A DNA stretch of 23,686 bases from a virus. The notes under the pieces were generated by a model. The model was given only the letters and a program-made list of their open reading frames with translations. It made no database searches and was not told where the DNA came from. The DNA is taken from positions 1-23,686 of IMG/VR virus record IMGVR_UViG_3300006104_000938. One strand, 5' to 3'. The position numbers were made by a program, and so were the translations under genes. Below are positions 11,428 to 23,686 of the stretch, in pieces (position 1 is the first letter of the stretch; each line of letters opens with the position of its first letter).

Positions 11428-11477
11428 ATATGCTCCGTAGGTTCCTATAAATATAATAAGCAACCTACGGAGCATAT
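11428..11477 (+). promoter_or_regulatory. 16-bp ribosome-site-masking hairpin around a late promoter
   Basis: Left arm ATATGCTCCGTAGGTT (11428-11443) is the exact reverse complement of AACCTACGGAGCATAT (11462-11477). The 18-base loop contains TATAAATA. The right arm includes the CGGAG Shine-Dalgarno (11468-11472) of the gene at 11481. RNA reading through from DUF932 would fold and hide it; RNA from the late promoter (start near 11459) lacks the left arm. It is not an intrinsic terminator, since no T-run follows. Confidence 0.88.
11446..11453 (+). promoter_or_regulatory. T4-type late promoter TATAAATA
   Basis: An exact late octamer in the loop of the 11428-11477 hairpin. Predicted start near 11459, three bases before the right arm, so the late transcript keeps the ribosome site but not its masking strand. 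Drives the 74-aa gene at 11481 and probably the two genes after it. Confidence 0.82.
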
Positions 11478-11480
11478 CTT

Positions 11481-11705
11481 ATGCAGAATGATCTTCTAGC
11501 AAAATTCCTTCCGGATGTCTTAACTAGACAAGAGATGCCAGAATGGTTTATACATATTGCCGACTCTAGATCTAAAGGCAGATGTGAATTTATCGTCTGG
11601 GATCATGAGGATGAAAAGATCATCCATGCTGATTTCTGGAAAGATGACGAATTCCATGAAACAAAAACTTTTCAGATTAAATTAGATTACACTAGAAAAG
11701 ATTAA
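11481..11705 (+). CDS. hypothetical 74-aa late protein
   Basis: A small protein starting MQNDLLAKFLPDVLTRQ, then MPEWFIHIADSRSKGRCEF and a beta-rich second half with DHEDEKIIHADFW and FQIKLDYTRKD. It has no recognised family, no membrane segment and no zinc motif. Start is defined by CGGAG with an 8-base spacing. It is controlled by the late promoter and masking hairpin directly upstream, so its product appears to be kept off early and made late, which suggests a virion, assembly or lysis-timing role. That role is inference from regulation only. Confidence 0.75.
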   Translation: MQNDLLAKFLPDVLTRQEMPEWFIHIADSRSKGRCEFIVWDHEDEKIIHADFWKDDEFHETKTFQIKLDYTRKD

Positions 11706-14238: not shown

Positions 14239-14267
14239 TTGACATTTTTATATAAATTTTGTATTAT
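14239..14267 (+). promoter_or_regulatory. sigma70 promoter (gene at 14282)
   Basis: TTGACA at 14239-14244, 17-base spacer, TATTAT at 14262-14267 (one mismatch to the -10). Predicted start near 14274. That leaves only about 8 bases before ATG 14282, or about 20 bases with a GGAGG site before an AUU codon at 14294. It lies in the 107-base divergent gap after the minus-strand gene. Confidence 0.72.
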
Positions 14268-14827: not shown

Positions 14828-14852
14828 TATAAATATCCGAAAGAGGATATTT
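14828..14852 (+). promoter_or_regulatory. late promoter overlapping a ribosome-site hairpin
   Basis: TATAAATA at 14828-14835. AAATATCC (14831-14838) is the exact reverse complement of GGATATTT (14845-14852), with a GAAAGA loop; the Shine-Dalgarno AAGAGGA (14841-14847) lies half in the loop and half in the right arm. Predicted start near 14841, so late RNA lacks the left arm and leaves the site free, while RNA read through from the early promoter at 14239 can fold it. Confidence 0.8.
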
Positions 14853-17120: not shown

Positions 17121-19310
17121 ATGGCACAGTTTACACTTTCAAATAATGCTTTTATAGCATCTAATAAAAGTATTTTTGATGTAAATATGATTGCATCTGA
17201 AGATGGTAATGTTATTTCAAACACTAATCCTCTTCCAATTAATCTTGTAGCTGGTGGAACAGTTTCTATTTCTGGCCCAATTAGTGTTACTGTCGGCAAT
17301 GTTGGAATAATTCACAGCAATGGTACGCCTATTACAAATGCTGCACCATTAGATGTTAAACCAATTGCAAATAGTTCTGTATATGTAAACGGTGGAAATA
17401 TTAATATTGGGAATTATCCACTTACACAGAATGTTTCATTTAGTAATCAGTCTGTTACAGTTGCTAATGGTTATATTAGTGTCAATAATCTTCCTGGAAC
17501 ACAAAACGTTTCATTCTCTAATCAATCAGTTACTATTTCTTCAGGAACAGTAAGTGTAAATAATCTTCCAACTACTCAGAATGTTTCATTCTCTAATCAA
17601 ACAATAACTGTTTCTGGTGGAACTTTAAATGTTAGCAATTTCCCAGTTACACAAAATGTTTCATTCTCTAATCAAACAATAACTGTTTCTGGTGGAACTT
17701 TAAATGTTAGCAATTTTACAGTTACACAAAATGTATCTTTTGCTAATCAGTCAGTAACAGTTTCTGGAAATATTGCTGGAATTACAAATACTGTTACTGT
17801 ATCAGTAAATAATTTTCCAACGACTCAAAATGTAAATGTAACATTTCCAACCACGCAAAATGTAGCTTTCTCTAATCAATCCATTACAGTTTCTGGTGGA
17901 AATATTAATATTGGCAATTATCCAGTTACACAGAATGTTTCTTTTTCTAATCAATCAGTGACAATTTCTTCTGGTACTATATCAGTAAATAGTTTTCCAG
18001 CTACACAGAATGTTCAAGTTCTTTCAAATACTAGCAACTATGTATATACACAATTTGCTCCAACTTGGTCATTAGATGCACTTAGTAAAGTTAGAACTTC
18101 AACTACATTAAATCAAAATTGGTATGTTCCAGTTATTGATGATGACACAAATTTTAGATGGTCACAAACACTGGCGGGCACTGCTGCAAATAGTACTTTT
18201 GTTTCTAATACAAATGAAATTATTTTACAAAGTGGACTGAGTGCAATTGGATCTGTGGCAAGACAAACTTATGAAAAATTTAAGATTATTCCAGGAACAT
18301 CACATACAGTTTATACTACAGTAAACTTTACAGCTAATACTACAGAATCTGGTGTTACTCGCCGTACTGGAATGTTTAGTAATACAAATGGAATATTTTG
18401 GGAACAAGGTGGTGTTTCTGCAAATACATTAGCCGTCGTTGTAAGAAGAAGACAAGCAAATGGTAATGTTATCGAAGATAGAACTTATGCAAATGCATTT
18501 AGTGTTGATAAATTAGATGGTACAGGACCATCTGGATTTAATATTTTCAGTGCAGGATTAAACAAATATTATACTTTTTGGTTTGACTTTATTGGCGGTA
18601 GAACGGGACGTATTCGTTTTGGTATGGGTACTCCACTTGGTCCACAAATTTGCCATGTTCAAAGTTATACTGGTACTGTTAATACTACATTTATTACAAA
18701 TAATTCTTTGCCATTGCGCCGTGAAATCTTTAATTCATCTTCGCAAACATCAACACCAACATTTGGAATGTCTGGTATTTCTTTTCAATCAGAAGCTCCA
18801 GCAGTATTTAATCCTTCACCAACCACAGCATATAATATTACACCATATACTCCAAATACTACATTGACACCAATTCTATCTATCGGTCTTCGTTCTGGAG
18901 AACCATATGTATTCAGTGATATATCTCCAGAACAACTTTTATTAGCTGATATTAATAACCAAGGAAAAAATAGTAGTCCCGGAACATTCTTATATGTACT
19001 TTTGTATAATGCAAATGTAAATGGTATTCCAGTATATTCTAATACAACTATTAGTGCAAATTGTGGTAGATCTTCTCAATATTGGGCCTGGCCAAATACA
19101 GCTACTGTATCAGGAGGTCTTCAAATATTCTCAGGCATTACTCAATCTGGAACTGGAGCATCTTCATTTCAAGCTTTGCCAACAACATATAATCTAGGAT
19201 CAGATATAAATGGAAATCCGGCAACATTAACTTTAGCAGTACAGCAAGTAGCTGCTGGAGGTTCAGCGGCAGGATTAGTAGCAACATGGAATATAATTGA
19301 ACAATTATAA
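17121..19310 (+). CDS. repeat-rich tail fibre/virion surface-type protein
   Basis: A 729-aa beta-rich protein. Residues about 92-300 hold about eight copies of a roughly 25-residue unit built on TQNVSFSNQSVTV and VNNLPT, two of which are almost identical in DNA. The following domain (about 310-560) contains GVTRRTGMFSNTNGIFWEQG, DGTGPSGFNIF and a FDFIGGRTGRIRFGMG strand pattern that I recognise from phage fibre-like structural proteins; a lectin-type jelly-roll is possible. The last 160 residues are a further beta-rich domain. The layout suggests an elongated stem with a host- or glycan-facing head. It starts after an AGAGGAT site and ends in a late promoter. Confidence 0.75.
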   Translation: MAQFTLSNNAFIASNKSIFDVNMIASEDGNVISNTNPLPINLVAGGTVSISGPISVTVGNVGIIHSNGTPITNAAPLDVKPIANSSVYVNGGNINIGNYPLTQNVSFSNQSVTVANGYISVNNLPGTQNVSFSNQSVTISSGTVSVNNLPTTQNVSFSNQTITVSGGTLNVSNFPVTQNVSFSNQTITVSGGTLNVSNFTVTQNVSFANQSVTVSGNIAGITNTVTVSVNNFPTTQNVNVTFPTTQNVAFSNQSITVSGGNINIGNYPVTQNVSFSNQSVTISSGTISVNSFPATQNVQVLSNTSNYVYTQFAPTWSLDALSKVRTSTTLNQNWYVPVIDDDTNFRWSQTLAGTAANSTFVSNTNEIILQSGLSAIGSVARQTYEKFKIIPGTSHTVYTTVNFTANTTESGVTRRTGMFSNTNGIFWEQGGVSANTLAVVVRRRQANGNVIEDRTYANAFSVDKLDGTGPSGFNIFSAGLNKYYTFWFDFIGGRTGRIRFGMGTPLGPQICHVQSYTGTVNTTFITNNSLPLRREIFNSSSQTSTPTFGMSGISFQSEAPAVFNPSPTTAYNITPYTPNTTLTPILSIGLRSGEPYVFSDISPEQLLLADINNQGKNSSPGTFLYVLLYNANVNGIPVYSNTTISANCGRSSQYWAWPNTATVSGGLQIFSGITQSGTGASSFQALPTTYNLGSDINGNPATLTLAVQQVAAGGSAAGLVATWNIIEQL
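17394..18020 (+). repeat. tandem ~75-bp coding repeats in the fibre-like gene
   Basis: About eight in-frame units of roughly 25 codons (TQNVSFSNQ...). The units starting at 17581 and 17656 are exactly 75 bases apart and identical over about 60 bases, so a recent duplication is likely. Units near 17750-17850 are irregular, including a short TQNVNVTFPT unit. Such repeats can change stem length by recombination. Confidence 0.85.
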
Positions 19311-19344
19311 ATATAGTATGAATTAATCTTAGGAATATTCCATG
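19285..19344 (+). promoter_or_regulatory. late promoter within an inverted repeat covering a start codon
   Basis: TATAAATA at 19306-19313 overlaps the fibre gene stop; predicted start near 19319. CATGGAATAT (19285-19294) is the exact reverse complement of ATATTCCATG (19335-19344), whose last three bases are the start codon of the next gene. GGAATATTCC (19332-19341) is also self-complementary. Read-through RNA could hide the start; late RNA lacks the left arm. Confidence 0.7.
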
Positions 19345-20607: not shown

Positions 20608-21856
20608 ACCCCTTAACGAGTTAGGAATGTTTAATGAACCATCCCTGGGAACATCTGATGAAAAACCTTCTGCTTTTGACTCAAGTCAAATCGCTTCTGC
20701 TGTTCCTTCTATCCAAATTCGACGTAAATCAAAAAAAGCAATAAAAGACTATAAAGTGGAGAACCCGATGGACGAAGAAAATAAACTGCTTACTTTCAAA
20801 GAGTTACAAGAAAAGCGTGGACTCTGGGATAACATTCATGCAAAGCGAGCGCGCATTAAGCATGGATCTGGAGAGCATATGCGTAAGCCGGGTTCCAAGG
20901 GTGCTCCTACTGCTGCAAACTTTAAGGCAGCTCAAGAAGAAGTTGATGCTGAAGGTGAAATGGCAGCAAATCAACTTTCAACTGCTGAACGTGCTGCCAA
21001 AACTCTTAAAGGTAAAATGAGTAAGAATACTCAATTGCCTGCATGGCTTCAAGCTAAAATTACCAAGGGTTCTGGTATGCTTGATGCTGCTTCTGATTAT
21101 ATGGCTAGTAAAGTTAAAGAAGAAATAGTATCTGAAGGTCCATTCTCTCAGGGGTATTTAAAAGCTACACAAAAGATGATAGATCAATCTAAGGCTGGTG
21201 GTGTTACATCAACTATTAGAGATAAAGATGAAAAGGGTACCTATACTCAAGTCACTAAAAATGGTGTACCCGGTCCTAAGGTATATGAAAGCATTCGTAT
21301 GGGTCACAGAGGAATCAAACCTGTTGAAAAAGATCCAGGTAAGAAAGTAGCATTCAAGAAAGTCAATAGTGCTGATGCTTTCAAGGCTGCTCTTGCTAAA
21401 GCCCGTGCTAAGAAGATGGAAGAATCTGCCGAACAGATTGATGAACTATCTCCTCAATTCTATGCAGCTGCTGATCGTGGTGATAGTACAAAGCGCAATA
21501 AGCCAAAGCCAGCAAAGTTAAAGTTCTATAGTAAGCCAGCAATGCCTATCAATAATAAACCAGCTCCTGCAATGGAAGAAACACTTACTGAACGCGGTGC
21601 AGATTCAAAGGGGTACTTCAGATCTACTGAAGCTGGTGCAGGTCTGACTGCTAAAGGTGCTGCTCACTTCCGTAGACAAAATCCAGGCTCAAAGCTTTCG
21701 ACAGCAGTAACTGAAAAGAATCCTAAGGGTAAGAGAGCTGCTCGTCGTAGATCTTTCTGTGCTAGAATGAGTGGAATGCCAGGTCCTATGAAGGATGAAA
21801 AGGGTAGACCAACTCGTAAGGCCATGTCACTTCGCCGTTGGAGATGCAGAACTTGA
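20600..21856 (+). CDS. DUF6321-like late phage protein
   Basis: A 418-aa basic, low-complexity protein. The C-terminal 90 residues hold KGYFRSTEAGAGLTAKGAA, RRQNPGSKLSTAV and SFCARMSGMPGPMKDEKG ending in LRRWRCRT, the pattern I associate with the phage DUF6321 family. The N-terminal part has KRARIKHGSGEHMRKPGSKG, and several alanine/lysine-rich helical stretches lie between. It is probably a virion-associated or DNA-binding structural protein made late; the two C-terminal cysteines (SFC and RWRC) may form a metal site, which is inference. AGGTAGGA precedes the ATG. Its end overlaps the Dps gene. Confidence 0.68.
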   Translation: MPKPLNELGMFNEPSLGTSDEKPSAFDSSQIASAVPSIQIRRKSKKAIKDYKVENPMDEENKLLTFKELQEKRGLWDNIHAKRARIKHGSGEHMRKPGSKGAPTAANFKAAQEEVDAEGEMAANQLSTAERAAKTLKGKMSKNTQLPAWLQAKITKGSGMLDAASDYMASKVKEEIVSEGPFSQGYLKATQKMIDQSKAGGVTSTIRDKDEKGTYTQVTKNGVPGPKVYESIRMGHRGIKPVEKDPGKKVAFKKVNSADAFKAALAKARAKKMEESAEQIDELSPQFYAAADRGDSTKRNKPKPAKLKFYSKPAMPINNKPAPAMEETLTERGADSKGYFRSTEAGAGLTAKGAAHFRRQNPGSKLSTAVTEKNPKGKRAARRRSFCARMSGMPGPMKDEKGRPTRKAMSLRRWRCRT

Positions 21857-22313: not shown

Positions 22314-23471
22314 ATGATCACTAAAGAAGAAATTGTTGTAGACATCGAAACACTTAGCACAGAAGAATTTGCTGAAAAATATAAGGACATCGATGTTCTT
22401 GCAATTCTCGATGAAGAAACTCTTGAAGAAGATGAAGCTCCAGTAAAGCGTGGTCGTGGTCGTCCAAAGGGTACAACAGGTATTCCTAAGCGTCGTGCAG
22501 GTGATTCAGAAGCTGAAAAGGCAGAACCACGTGGTATTACTCAGCAGTTAGGTCATGCTGCTGATAATCCAGAAGGTGCAAAGGTAAGATTTGCTTCTGG
22601 TGAAGTTCATCACGTTCGTCGCGCTGAAGCACATAAAGCTCTGCTTCATTTTGATAACGAGCATAATCAAAAGCCAGAAGCAAAGCGTAGATATCTTGCA
22701 AAGCTCGGTAAGAGCAAGGCTCATTTCTATGATGCTATGAAGACTGGTAAAGGCGATGAGCCAGCTGGTCCAAAGAAGATCTCGCTTGCTCGTGGTGCAA
22801 CATATGATCCAGCAACACGTCAATACTCAAAAGAAGAAGTTGAAATCTTTGGTGAAGCCGTTGACATGCATGGCTGGAATAAGATCAGCTCGCATAAGGA
22901 TCATACCGGCGAGATGTTCCACCTTCATAATAAGCCAGGTACTGATGAGCACGTATTAGTACATGCTGGTACTGGTGATATTCATCATGGCTTCCATGGT
23001 AAAACAAAGGATGTACATCACTTCCTGAAGAATTATAGCTTCAGCGATCTGCCACGTCCAACCAAGGAAGAAGCAGAACTTTCTCCAAAGCAAAAGAAGA
23101 TTGCTGCCATGTCTCCTCCTGCAGATAAGATTGATGCTGGCGATTTAGCTAAGCTTCGTCAAGGCAAGAAGATGCATGAAAAGTATGAAGATTCTGAGGA
23201 AGACGACAAAGAAGATAAGAAGATGGAAAAGAAAACCGGAATGTCTCATGATGAATGGGAAGCTTCGGATGAAGATAAAGAAATGGATAAGAAGGCTGAG
23301 AAGAAAGACAACGATAAGAAGTCTGACAAGAAGGATGCTAAAGAAGATGTAAATCCTCGCGTCCCAGGCTTTACTCATGGTCTTGCTAGTACTATCCATG
23401 AAATTATGAGTAAGAATATTGACCTGAGAAGAATGGCTTCTGAAGAAGAGTTTAAGAATCGTAATAAATGA
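22314..23471 (+). CDS. AT-hook-containing, charged late protein
   Basis: A 385-aa protein. An acidic N-terminus (about 1-42) leads to RGRGRPKG (46-53), an AT-hook that binds the minor groove of AT-rich DNA, apt for this AT-rich genome. A histidine-rich middle follows (VRFASGEVHHVRRAEAHKAL and LGKSKAHFYDAMKTG), then a compact GWNKISSHKDHTGEMFHLHN region, and a long acidic/basic low-complexity stretch (about 285-345) rich in DKK and EDD. The end is RVPGFTHGLASTIHEIM, resembling a short conserved phage tail motif. It is probably virion-associated and DNA-binding. TAGGAG precedes ATG. The stop overlaps the next ATG (ATGA). Confidence 0.72.
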   Translation: MITKEEIVVDIETLSTEEFAEKYKDIDVLAILDEETLEEDEAPVKRGRGRPKGTTGIPKRRAGDSEAEKAEPRGITQQLGHAADNPEGAKVRFASGEVHHVRRAEAHKALLHFDNEHNQKPEAKRRYLAKLGKSKAHFYDAMKTGKGDEPAGPKKISLARGATYDPATRQYSKEEVEIFGEAVDMHGWNKISSHKDHTGEMFHLHNKPGTDEHVLVHAGTGDIHHGFHGKTKDVHHFLKNYSFSDLPRPTKEEAELSPKQKKIAAMSPPADKIDAGDLAKLRQGKKMHEKYEDSEEDDKEDKKMEKKTGMSHDEWEASDEDKEMDKKAEKKDNDKKSDKKDAKEDVNPRVPGFTHGLASTIHEIMSKNIDLRRMASEEEFKNRNK

Positions 23472-23638
23472 TAGTAACTCTATCTCAAAAGGCCATGATT
23501 CTAGATTCTTCTAACACTGTGGTTAAACAACTGACTAATGGATCGACTAATAAAGTCATTATGGACCTAAGGCCGATCTTCTTTGTTAGAGATTCACAAT
23601 CTATTATAAATAGTACTAATAACAAAGGAGATAACTAA
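23468..23638 (+). CDS. hypothetical 56-aa late protein
   Basis: A short ORF that exactly fills the space between the AT-hook gene and the last gene, with an ATGA overlap at its start and a TAATG overlap at its end. It begins MIVTLSQKAMILDSSNTV and continues VKQLTNGSTNKVIMDLRP, FFVRDSQ, beta-rich with no hydrophobic segment. The 3' third of the gene also carries the late promoter and both arms of the hairpin for the next gene, so its codons are doing two jobs. Family unknown; a small virion or connector protein is a guess from context. Confidence 0.68.
   Translation: MIVTLSQKAMILDSSNTVVKQLTNGSTNKVIMDLRPIFFVRDSQSIINSTNNKGDN
23576..23632 (+). promoter_or_regulatory. 13-bp ribosome-site-masking hairpin around a late promoter
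   Basis: ATCTTCTTTGTTA (23576-23588) pairs with TAACAAAGGAGAT (23620-23632): 12 Watson-Crick pairs and one G-U. The right arm covers the whole AAAGGAG Shine-Dalgarno of the gene at 23638. The 31-base loop contains TATAAATA (23605-23612), with a predicted start near 23618, so late RNA lacks the left arm. Confidence 0.85.
23605..23612 (+). promoter_or_regulatory. T4-type late promoter TATAAATA
   Basis: An exact late octamer inside the 3' end of the 56-aa gene and inside the loop of the 23576-23632 hairpin. It is placed to drive the virion protein gene at 23638 with a leader of about 20 bases. Confidence 0.8.
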
Positions 23639-23686
23639 TGCCTTTATGGGGAAAATTAAATCAACAAAATAATGCTCCAAAGTCGA
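23638..23686 (+). CDS. virion protein of the MPLWG type, N-terminal fragment
   Basis: Only 16 codons are in the window: MPLWGKLNQQNNAPKS, then the edge. This opening resembles the MPLWG start of virion/structural proteins annotated in marine T4-like phages, as I recall them. It starts in a TAATG overlap with the 56-aa gene, with a perfect AAAGGAG ribosome site that is under hairpin control. Identity rests on a few residues and on context. Confidence 0.55.
   Translation, partial: MPLWGKLNQQNNAPKS

Follow-up and report, generated by a model that had tools for sequence, protein, structure and literature searches.

T4 late gates and the phage under study

In T4, according to two reviews, the Shine-Dalgarno and/or AUG of genes e, soc, 49 and I-TevI is masked only in longer transcripts, the late RNA being without the 5' strand of the stem (PMC3014915, PMC2988022). 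The second of these describes hairpins of the free-standing homing endonucleases T4 segB and Aeh1 mobE that follow the same logic outside introns (PMC2988022), and the first describes split ribosome-binding-site stems at T4 genes 25 and 38, with the gene 25 stem found only in close relatives (PMC3014915). The mechanism considered here is already known from e, soc, 49 and I-TevI and from segB and mobE, and is proposed here for another gene; a full-text literature search, with most subscription journals outside its coverage, returned no report of a late gate at an MPLWG-type gene.

The window, i.e. the whole stretch of DNA that was analysed, is a virus record of 23,686 bases. Three longer IMG/VR contigs share its genotype (3,219/3,219 bases identical in each), and contig G001, with 1 mismatch in 11,918, extends it to a joined sequence of 52,313 bases; these records of identical genotype are the sole close records of the phage. 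The phage is uncultured and T4-like. A minus-strand block carries the terminase, sheath, tube, portal, protease, scaffold and major head protein genes, and the plus strand on both sides of the studied region carries exonuclease, PhoH-like and glycosyltransferase genes as well as primase and NrdA/NrdB genes. Neither the upstream region nor the 385-aa protein had a match in a phage collection, the sole match to the MPLWG protein in that collection was Caulobacter phage Cr30, which is without the NATAAATA box at that place, a scan of genome contigs for relatives found none, and the 729-aa protein used as a probe matched 0 of 8 relative contigs. The sister contig G005 has matches to 21 of 30 proteins tested.

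Stem and probable late promoter at 23576-23632, and the small gene around them

The following features, all on the plus strand, were distinguished.

14239-14267, plus: sigma-70-like promoter (TTGACA, 17, TATTAT; 11/12), a candidate source of early read-through by consensus match alone, such matches being no commoner than in shuffles
22314-23471, plus: upstream 385-aa ORF, with a G005 homologue 44% identical
23468-23638, plus: 56-aa ORF holding both arms and the promoter; its start overlaps the stop of the 385-aa ORF (ATGA) and its stop overlaps the next start (TAATG)
23576-23588, plus: 5' arm, ATCTTCTTTGTTA, which encodes I-F-F-V-R in the 56-aa ORF
23605-23612, plus: very likely late promoter, TATAAATA, in the loop of the stem, with the box at -33; NATAAATA stands before 40 of 47 related starts
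23618, plus: predicted late transcription start, about 6 bases past the box, placed by analogy with the T4 late promoter
23620-23632, plus: 3' arm of the stem, TAACAAAGGAGAT, the inverted-repeat partner
23624-23630, plus: Shine-Dalgarno AAAGGAG of the MPLWG gene, entirely inside the 3' arm
23638-23686, plus: first part of the MPLWG gene, which runs past the window end; 214 aa in L002, relatives found

The inverted repeat at 23576-23588 and 23620-23632 is 13 nt long, with 12 Watson-Crick pairs, one G-U pair and 31 nt between the arms, and the 13-bp stem is the main helix in the predicted fold of 23560-23660 (-20.4 kcal/mol, z -2.0). The upstream 53 bases and the leader form a duplex calculated at -15.6 kcal/mol, and dinucleotide shuffling gave equal or better pairing in 20 of 20,000 cases when only the upstream side was shuffled and in 10 of 20,000 when both sides were. 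Across the 52-kb phage sequence this stem is among 12 strong hairpins, for which two shuffles gave 2 and 1, and NATAAATA lies in the loop of two of the 12, a figure equalled or exceeded by 354 of 100,000 random placements. The repeat, the fold and the shuffles agree with the earlier note, which had described a 13-bp stem with one G-U and a 31-base loop masking all of AAAGGAG and had placed the promoter in the loop, where TATAAATA is indeed located; the observed hairpin-promoter arrangement is thereby confirmed as real. Strong perfect hairpins, many of them inside coding genes, are in excess throughout the group, with 12, 11, 12 and 6 in the 52-kb phage, G005, G006 and G009, respectively, as against 0-2 in shuffles.

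Five exact copies of TATAAATA occur in the window, all five on the plus strand and each 25-36 bases ahead of an ORF start, and a pattern scan for TATAAATA at 15-45 bases ahead of an MxLWG start returned at least 120 contigs. A separate set of 85 loci comprised 79 found by protein, with the promoter not used as a criterion, and 6 others; 16 were without a start by the pattern used and one was too near the end, and deduplication gave 47 distinct starts. NATAAATA lies within the last 60 bases of 40 of these (4 of the 40 only at -60), so, judged on this recurrence, the T4-type box very likely serves the MPLWG gene family as a true late promoter, in agreement with the earlier note, which had predicted a late start from it. 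In T4 late promoters, transcription starts approximately 6 bases past the box. By that distance the predicted start at 23618 falls between the arm boundaries 23588 and 23620, which agrees with the proposal that the arms flank it and that the 5' arm would be absent from RNA beginning there.

The 56-aa ORF has a homologue at the same place in L071 (17/52 residues identical, pairwise E 9e-6) and further homologues in L207, L208, L237, L261 and L263, some of which match the L071 protein better than that of the window. On these homologies it is a real, conserved small gene, and the proposed overlap of both arms and the promoter with coding sequence therefore stands; its codon statistics, taken alone, are ambiguous, and there is no clear Shine-Dalgarno ahead of it. 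With the peptide held fixed, the 5'-arm codons pair better than approximately 99% of synonymous recodings (30/5,000 as good; usage-weighted P 0.0075). The effect is weaker by pair count, as 13 pairs are kept in 8 of 288 synonymous combinations (weighted 0.097). Codon choice in the 5' arm thus favours pairing beyond the requirement of the peptide. The gene whose Shine-Dalgarno is covered starts at 23638, in a UAAUG overlap with the stop of the 56-aa ORF. The earlier note had called it a virion gene; the virion role is an inference, the single family match of the product being weak (phrog_460, E 0.0038).

Predicted accessibility differs strongly between the two forms of RNA: opening the Shine-Dalgarno would cost 7.0, 9.4 and 7.5 kcal/mol in RNA from -60, -90 and -150, respectively, versus 1.5 from the late start. 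By the same measure the T4 genes e and I-TevII gave 13.1-13.4 versus 1.3 and 11.8-12.9 versus 0.3 kcal/mol, and the control gene 18 gave 2.4-2.8 versus 1.7. Ranking 24 T4 late boxes by the same statistic placed I-TevII 1st, I-TevIII 3rd, e 5th and soc 9th, and since the documented case soc scores low by energy (1.3), the measure is neither complete nor proof. T4 genes 51 and 26 also score high, which, as read from the coordinates, reflects complementary ribosome-binding sites of divergent genes.

An early promoter is one possible source of the long RNA, the candidate being the sigma-70-like match at 14239, 9.4 kb upstream, with early-type genes on the same strand; upstream late boxes are another. 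Several of the promoters upstream (15918, 19306 and 22279) are late boxes too, so read-through need not be early; if it came from these, the gate would separate RNA of the gene's own promoter from operon RNA, and not late from early.

Relatives and other late genes of the phage

Complementarity is kept in two of the six relatives with the small ORF (L207 and L208) and not in the other four: in L238 (the contig carrying L071), L237, L261 and L263, the small ORF and the late box are present, but no helix masking the Shine-Dalgarno was found. In L207, whose protein is 57% identical, UCUUUGUUGU pairs with ACAACAAAGG around a loop containing AATAAATA, and a Shine-Dalgarno-anchored helix as good was obtained in 12 of 2,000 shuffles. 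A 20-bp hairpin inside the small ORF of L207 overlaps the 5' arm and wins, and because it takes this arm the predicted read-through and late RNAs differ little. The hairpin lies at 21775-21825 of G005, reversed (-110 to -60 from the L207 start at 2501), and is followed by a T-rich stretch; it may be a terminator or a structure competing with the gate. Stems of 11 and 13 bp occur elsewhere in the same small ORF of L208 and L237, respectively.

In L208, identical here in sequence to L209 and L210, CCUAUGUU pairs with AACAUAGG; compared with the window phage, both members of one pair differ and C-G replaces the G-U. The 5' arm is drawn from another part of the small ORF, so that retention would be functional and not homologous. 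The predicted difference in L208 is large (6.2-6.8 versus 0.5 kcal/mol) and its helix is statistically weak (p 0.076 and 0.106; 185/2,000 shuffles, where the start-site cut trimmed its 3' arm). Among 117 other family members, i.e. the distinct MxLWG starts L042-L161 that were left when 3 duplicates were dropped from 120 of the pattern matches, the stem statistic was at chance level (1 at p<=0.01, 5 at p<=0.05). General conservation of the hairpin is therefore not upheld by either set, and the differences of relatives in the arms are replacements and indels, not synonymous changes. An impression from the 117 distant relatives that the structure is unique to the window phage was softened by L207 and L208, and then by the competing hairpin of L207. 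At 61 of the 117 MxLWG starts listed, a terminator-like hairpin stands directly upstream of TATAAATA, with its T run merging into the box; such a terminator fused to a late promoter would be another way to shield the gene from read-through.

Within the phage, the difference between read-through and late RNA, start codon included, was ranked for 13 late-box genes, and the top four, all on the plus strand, were 11481 (16.7), 19342 (8.7), 23638 (8.4) and 14855 (7.9). The exonuclease, PhoH-like, primase and NrdA/B genes share this strand with them, and the opposite-strand major head and scaffold genes gave 1.0 and 0.8 by the same measure. From these models the phage seems to use the gate at four late genes (11481, 14855, 19342 and 23638), all on the strand of the early-type genes, and seems not to use it at the two opposite-strand head genes, although the sample behind this strand contrast is small (four genes against few). 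Gene 19342 reaches only 0.5 by its Shine-Dalgarno alone because the start codon is the masked part.

The structures at the other three genes are built differently. At 11428-11477, a 16-bp perfect stem with TATAAATA (11446) in its loop masks the Shine-Dalgarno of the 74-aa ORF at 11481, and is the strongest such structure found (duplex z -6.1; 22.9 versus 3.9 kcal/mol); the G005 homologue of this ORF is without a late box and without such a stem. At 14831-14852, the late box at 14828 itself serves as the 5' arm; the stem AAATATCC/GGATATTT covers the Shine-Dalgarno of 14855, and the predicted start falls in its loop. The G005 counterpart (reversed, upstream of the gene at 17226) retains the stem, its loop being different. 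At 19342, the pairing CATGGAATAT/ATATTCCATG (19285-19294 and 19335-19344) joins the last part of the 729-aa ORF to the region of the start codon, the late box at 19306 lying between; the straddling stem of the G005 homologue is unrelated to it. In G005 the differences remain large, with changed stems, at the gene in the position of 14855 (9.0) and at the 19342 homologue (8.0), and the MPLWG gene gives 1.9.

A late gate formed by a hairpin is probably present at several genes of this virus. A wider generalisation, offered tentatively and with somewhat less than even confidence, is that the phage group uses promoter-in-hairpin gates generally to silence late genes among early genes, with at least four here, and that the arm is drawn from whatever lies upstream (a coding-gene end, a separate small gene, intergenic DNA or a promoter box), such that sister phages would retain the gate although its sequence changes from one to another.

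Alternative readings and comparison with T4

The best explanation for the arrangement, with a probability of roughly 0.6, is a T4-type late translation gate at the MPLWG gene. Transcripts entering from upstream, whether early or other read-through, would carry both arms, so that the 13-bp stem would fold and conceal the Shine-Dalgarno of the MPLWG gene; RNA begun at the loop promoter, near 23618, would be without the 5' arm, leaving the Shine-Dalgarno free and the MPLWG gene translated only late. Since the 5' arm is also coding sequence of the small conserved gene, the gate would be shut only when no ribosomes are moving through the end of that gene. The earlier note had left this point out: ribosomes translating the 56-aa ORF would open the stem. 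This and the weak conservation at the MPLWG gene are two points that hold back the gate reading.

The serious rival, although an unlikely one, is translational coupling, by which the MPLWG gene on polycistronic RNA would need ribosomes from the 56-aa ORF to open the stem and restart at UAAUG, with the late promoter adding an uncoupled transcript. It accords with the conservation of the small ORF, with the overlap of its ends with both neighbours and with the position of the arms within its last 20 codons, where ribosomes would melt the stem. Against this, the stop-start overlap is absent from L207, L208 and L071, where the small ORF stops 24, 24 and 4 bases upstream, respectively, and other strong gates of the phage, such as the intergenic one at 11481, need no such ORF. 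The balance between the two would be set by the efficiency with which ribosomes translate the 56-aa ORF on long RNA, and the gate is favoured because no clear Shine-Dalgarno precedes this ORF.

It is less probable still that the stem is a chance by-product without function, i.e. an AT-rich, anti-Shine-Dalgarno-like codon run (F-F-V) facing a Shine-Dalgarno. Four of the six relatives with the small ORF are without the stem, equally good pairing with the leader occurs in 14 of 10,403 stretches taken elsewhere on the same strand of the phage, and strong hairpins are generally many in this phage group, but the rarity of equal shuffles (20/20,000), the promoter-in-loop association and the three further straddling structures at late boxes of the same phage argue for more than coincidence. 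As a DNA pattern, the arms were found in 32 contigs, of which 3 are this phage and most of the others hold unrelated genes, since the arm is simply anti-Shine-Dalgarno. In L162, L167, L183 and L189 a stretch that is TTGAC-like and contains GATAAATA lies between the same arms (CTTTGTTA/TAACAAAGGAG), ahead of a gene with a product that resembles photosystem II D2 (psbD). Very improbable is a DNA or transcription element, such as an intrinsic terminator or a protein operator around the promoter, in place of an RNA gate: terminator-like hairpins do stand before TATAAATA in the 61 relatives noted above and the G005 hairpin precedes a T-rich stretch, but the arm at the MPLWG gene coincides exactly with the Shine-Dalgarno. 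An intrinsic terminator was specifically rejected, the stem having 3 G-C pairs in 13, a 31-base loop and no T run after it (AACTAATG), and the terminator scan listing none there. A divergent-gene artefact was likewise rejected, with no minus-strand ATG-start ORF of at least 40 aa at the repeat (one TTG-start ORF has 46 aa).

If the late gate at the MPLWG gene is true, the T4 device would be a routine means to place late genes inside early transcription units, beyond lysozyme and homing endonucleases, promoter, RNA switch and protein code would share the same bases, and concrete predictions would follow at four genes. As with T4 e, soc, 49 and I-TevI, the late box is within or beside the stem; unlike them, the gate would act on an MPLWG-type gene, its 5' arm and promoter belong to the coding sequence of a small gene that adjoins this target, and the effect is predicted only. 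The T4 e structure is seen in close T-evens; complementarity at the MPLWG gene is kept in two of six relatives and in one of these is out-competed. segB and mobE are endonuclease genes, and mobE, according to the reviews, was experimentally tested, whereas the MPLWG gate is predicted from sequence. The likeness to T4 genes 25 and 38 lies in a local stem at a T4-like translation start, but there the stem lies between the Shine-Dalgarno and the AUG and aids initiation, and here it covers the Shine-Dalgarno.
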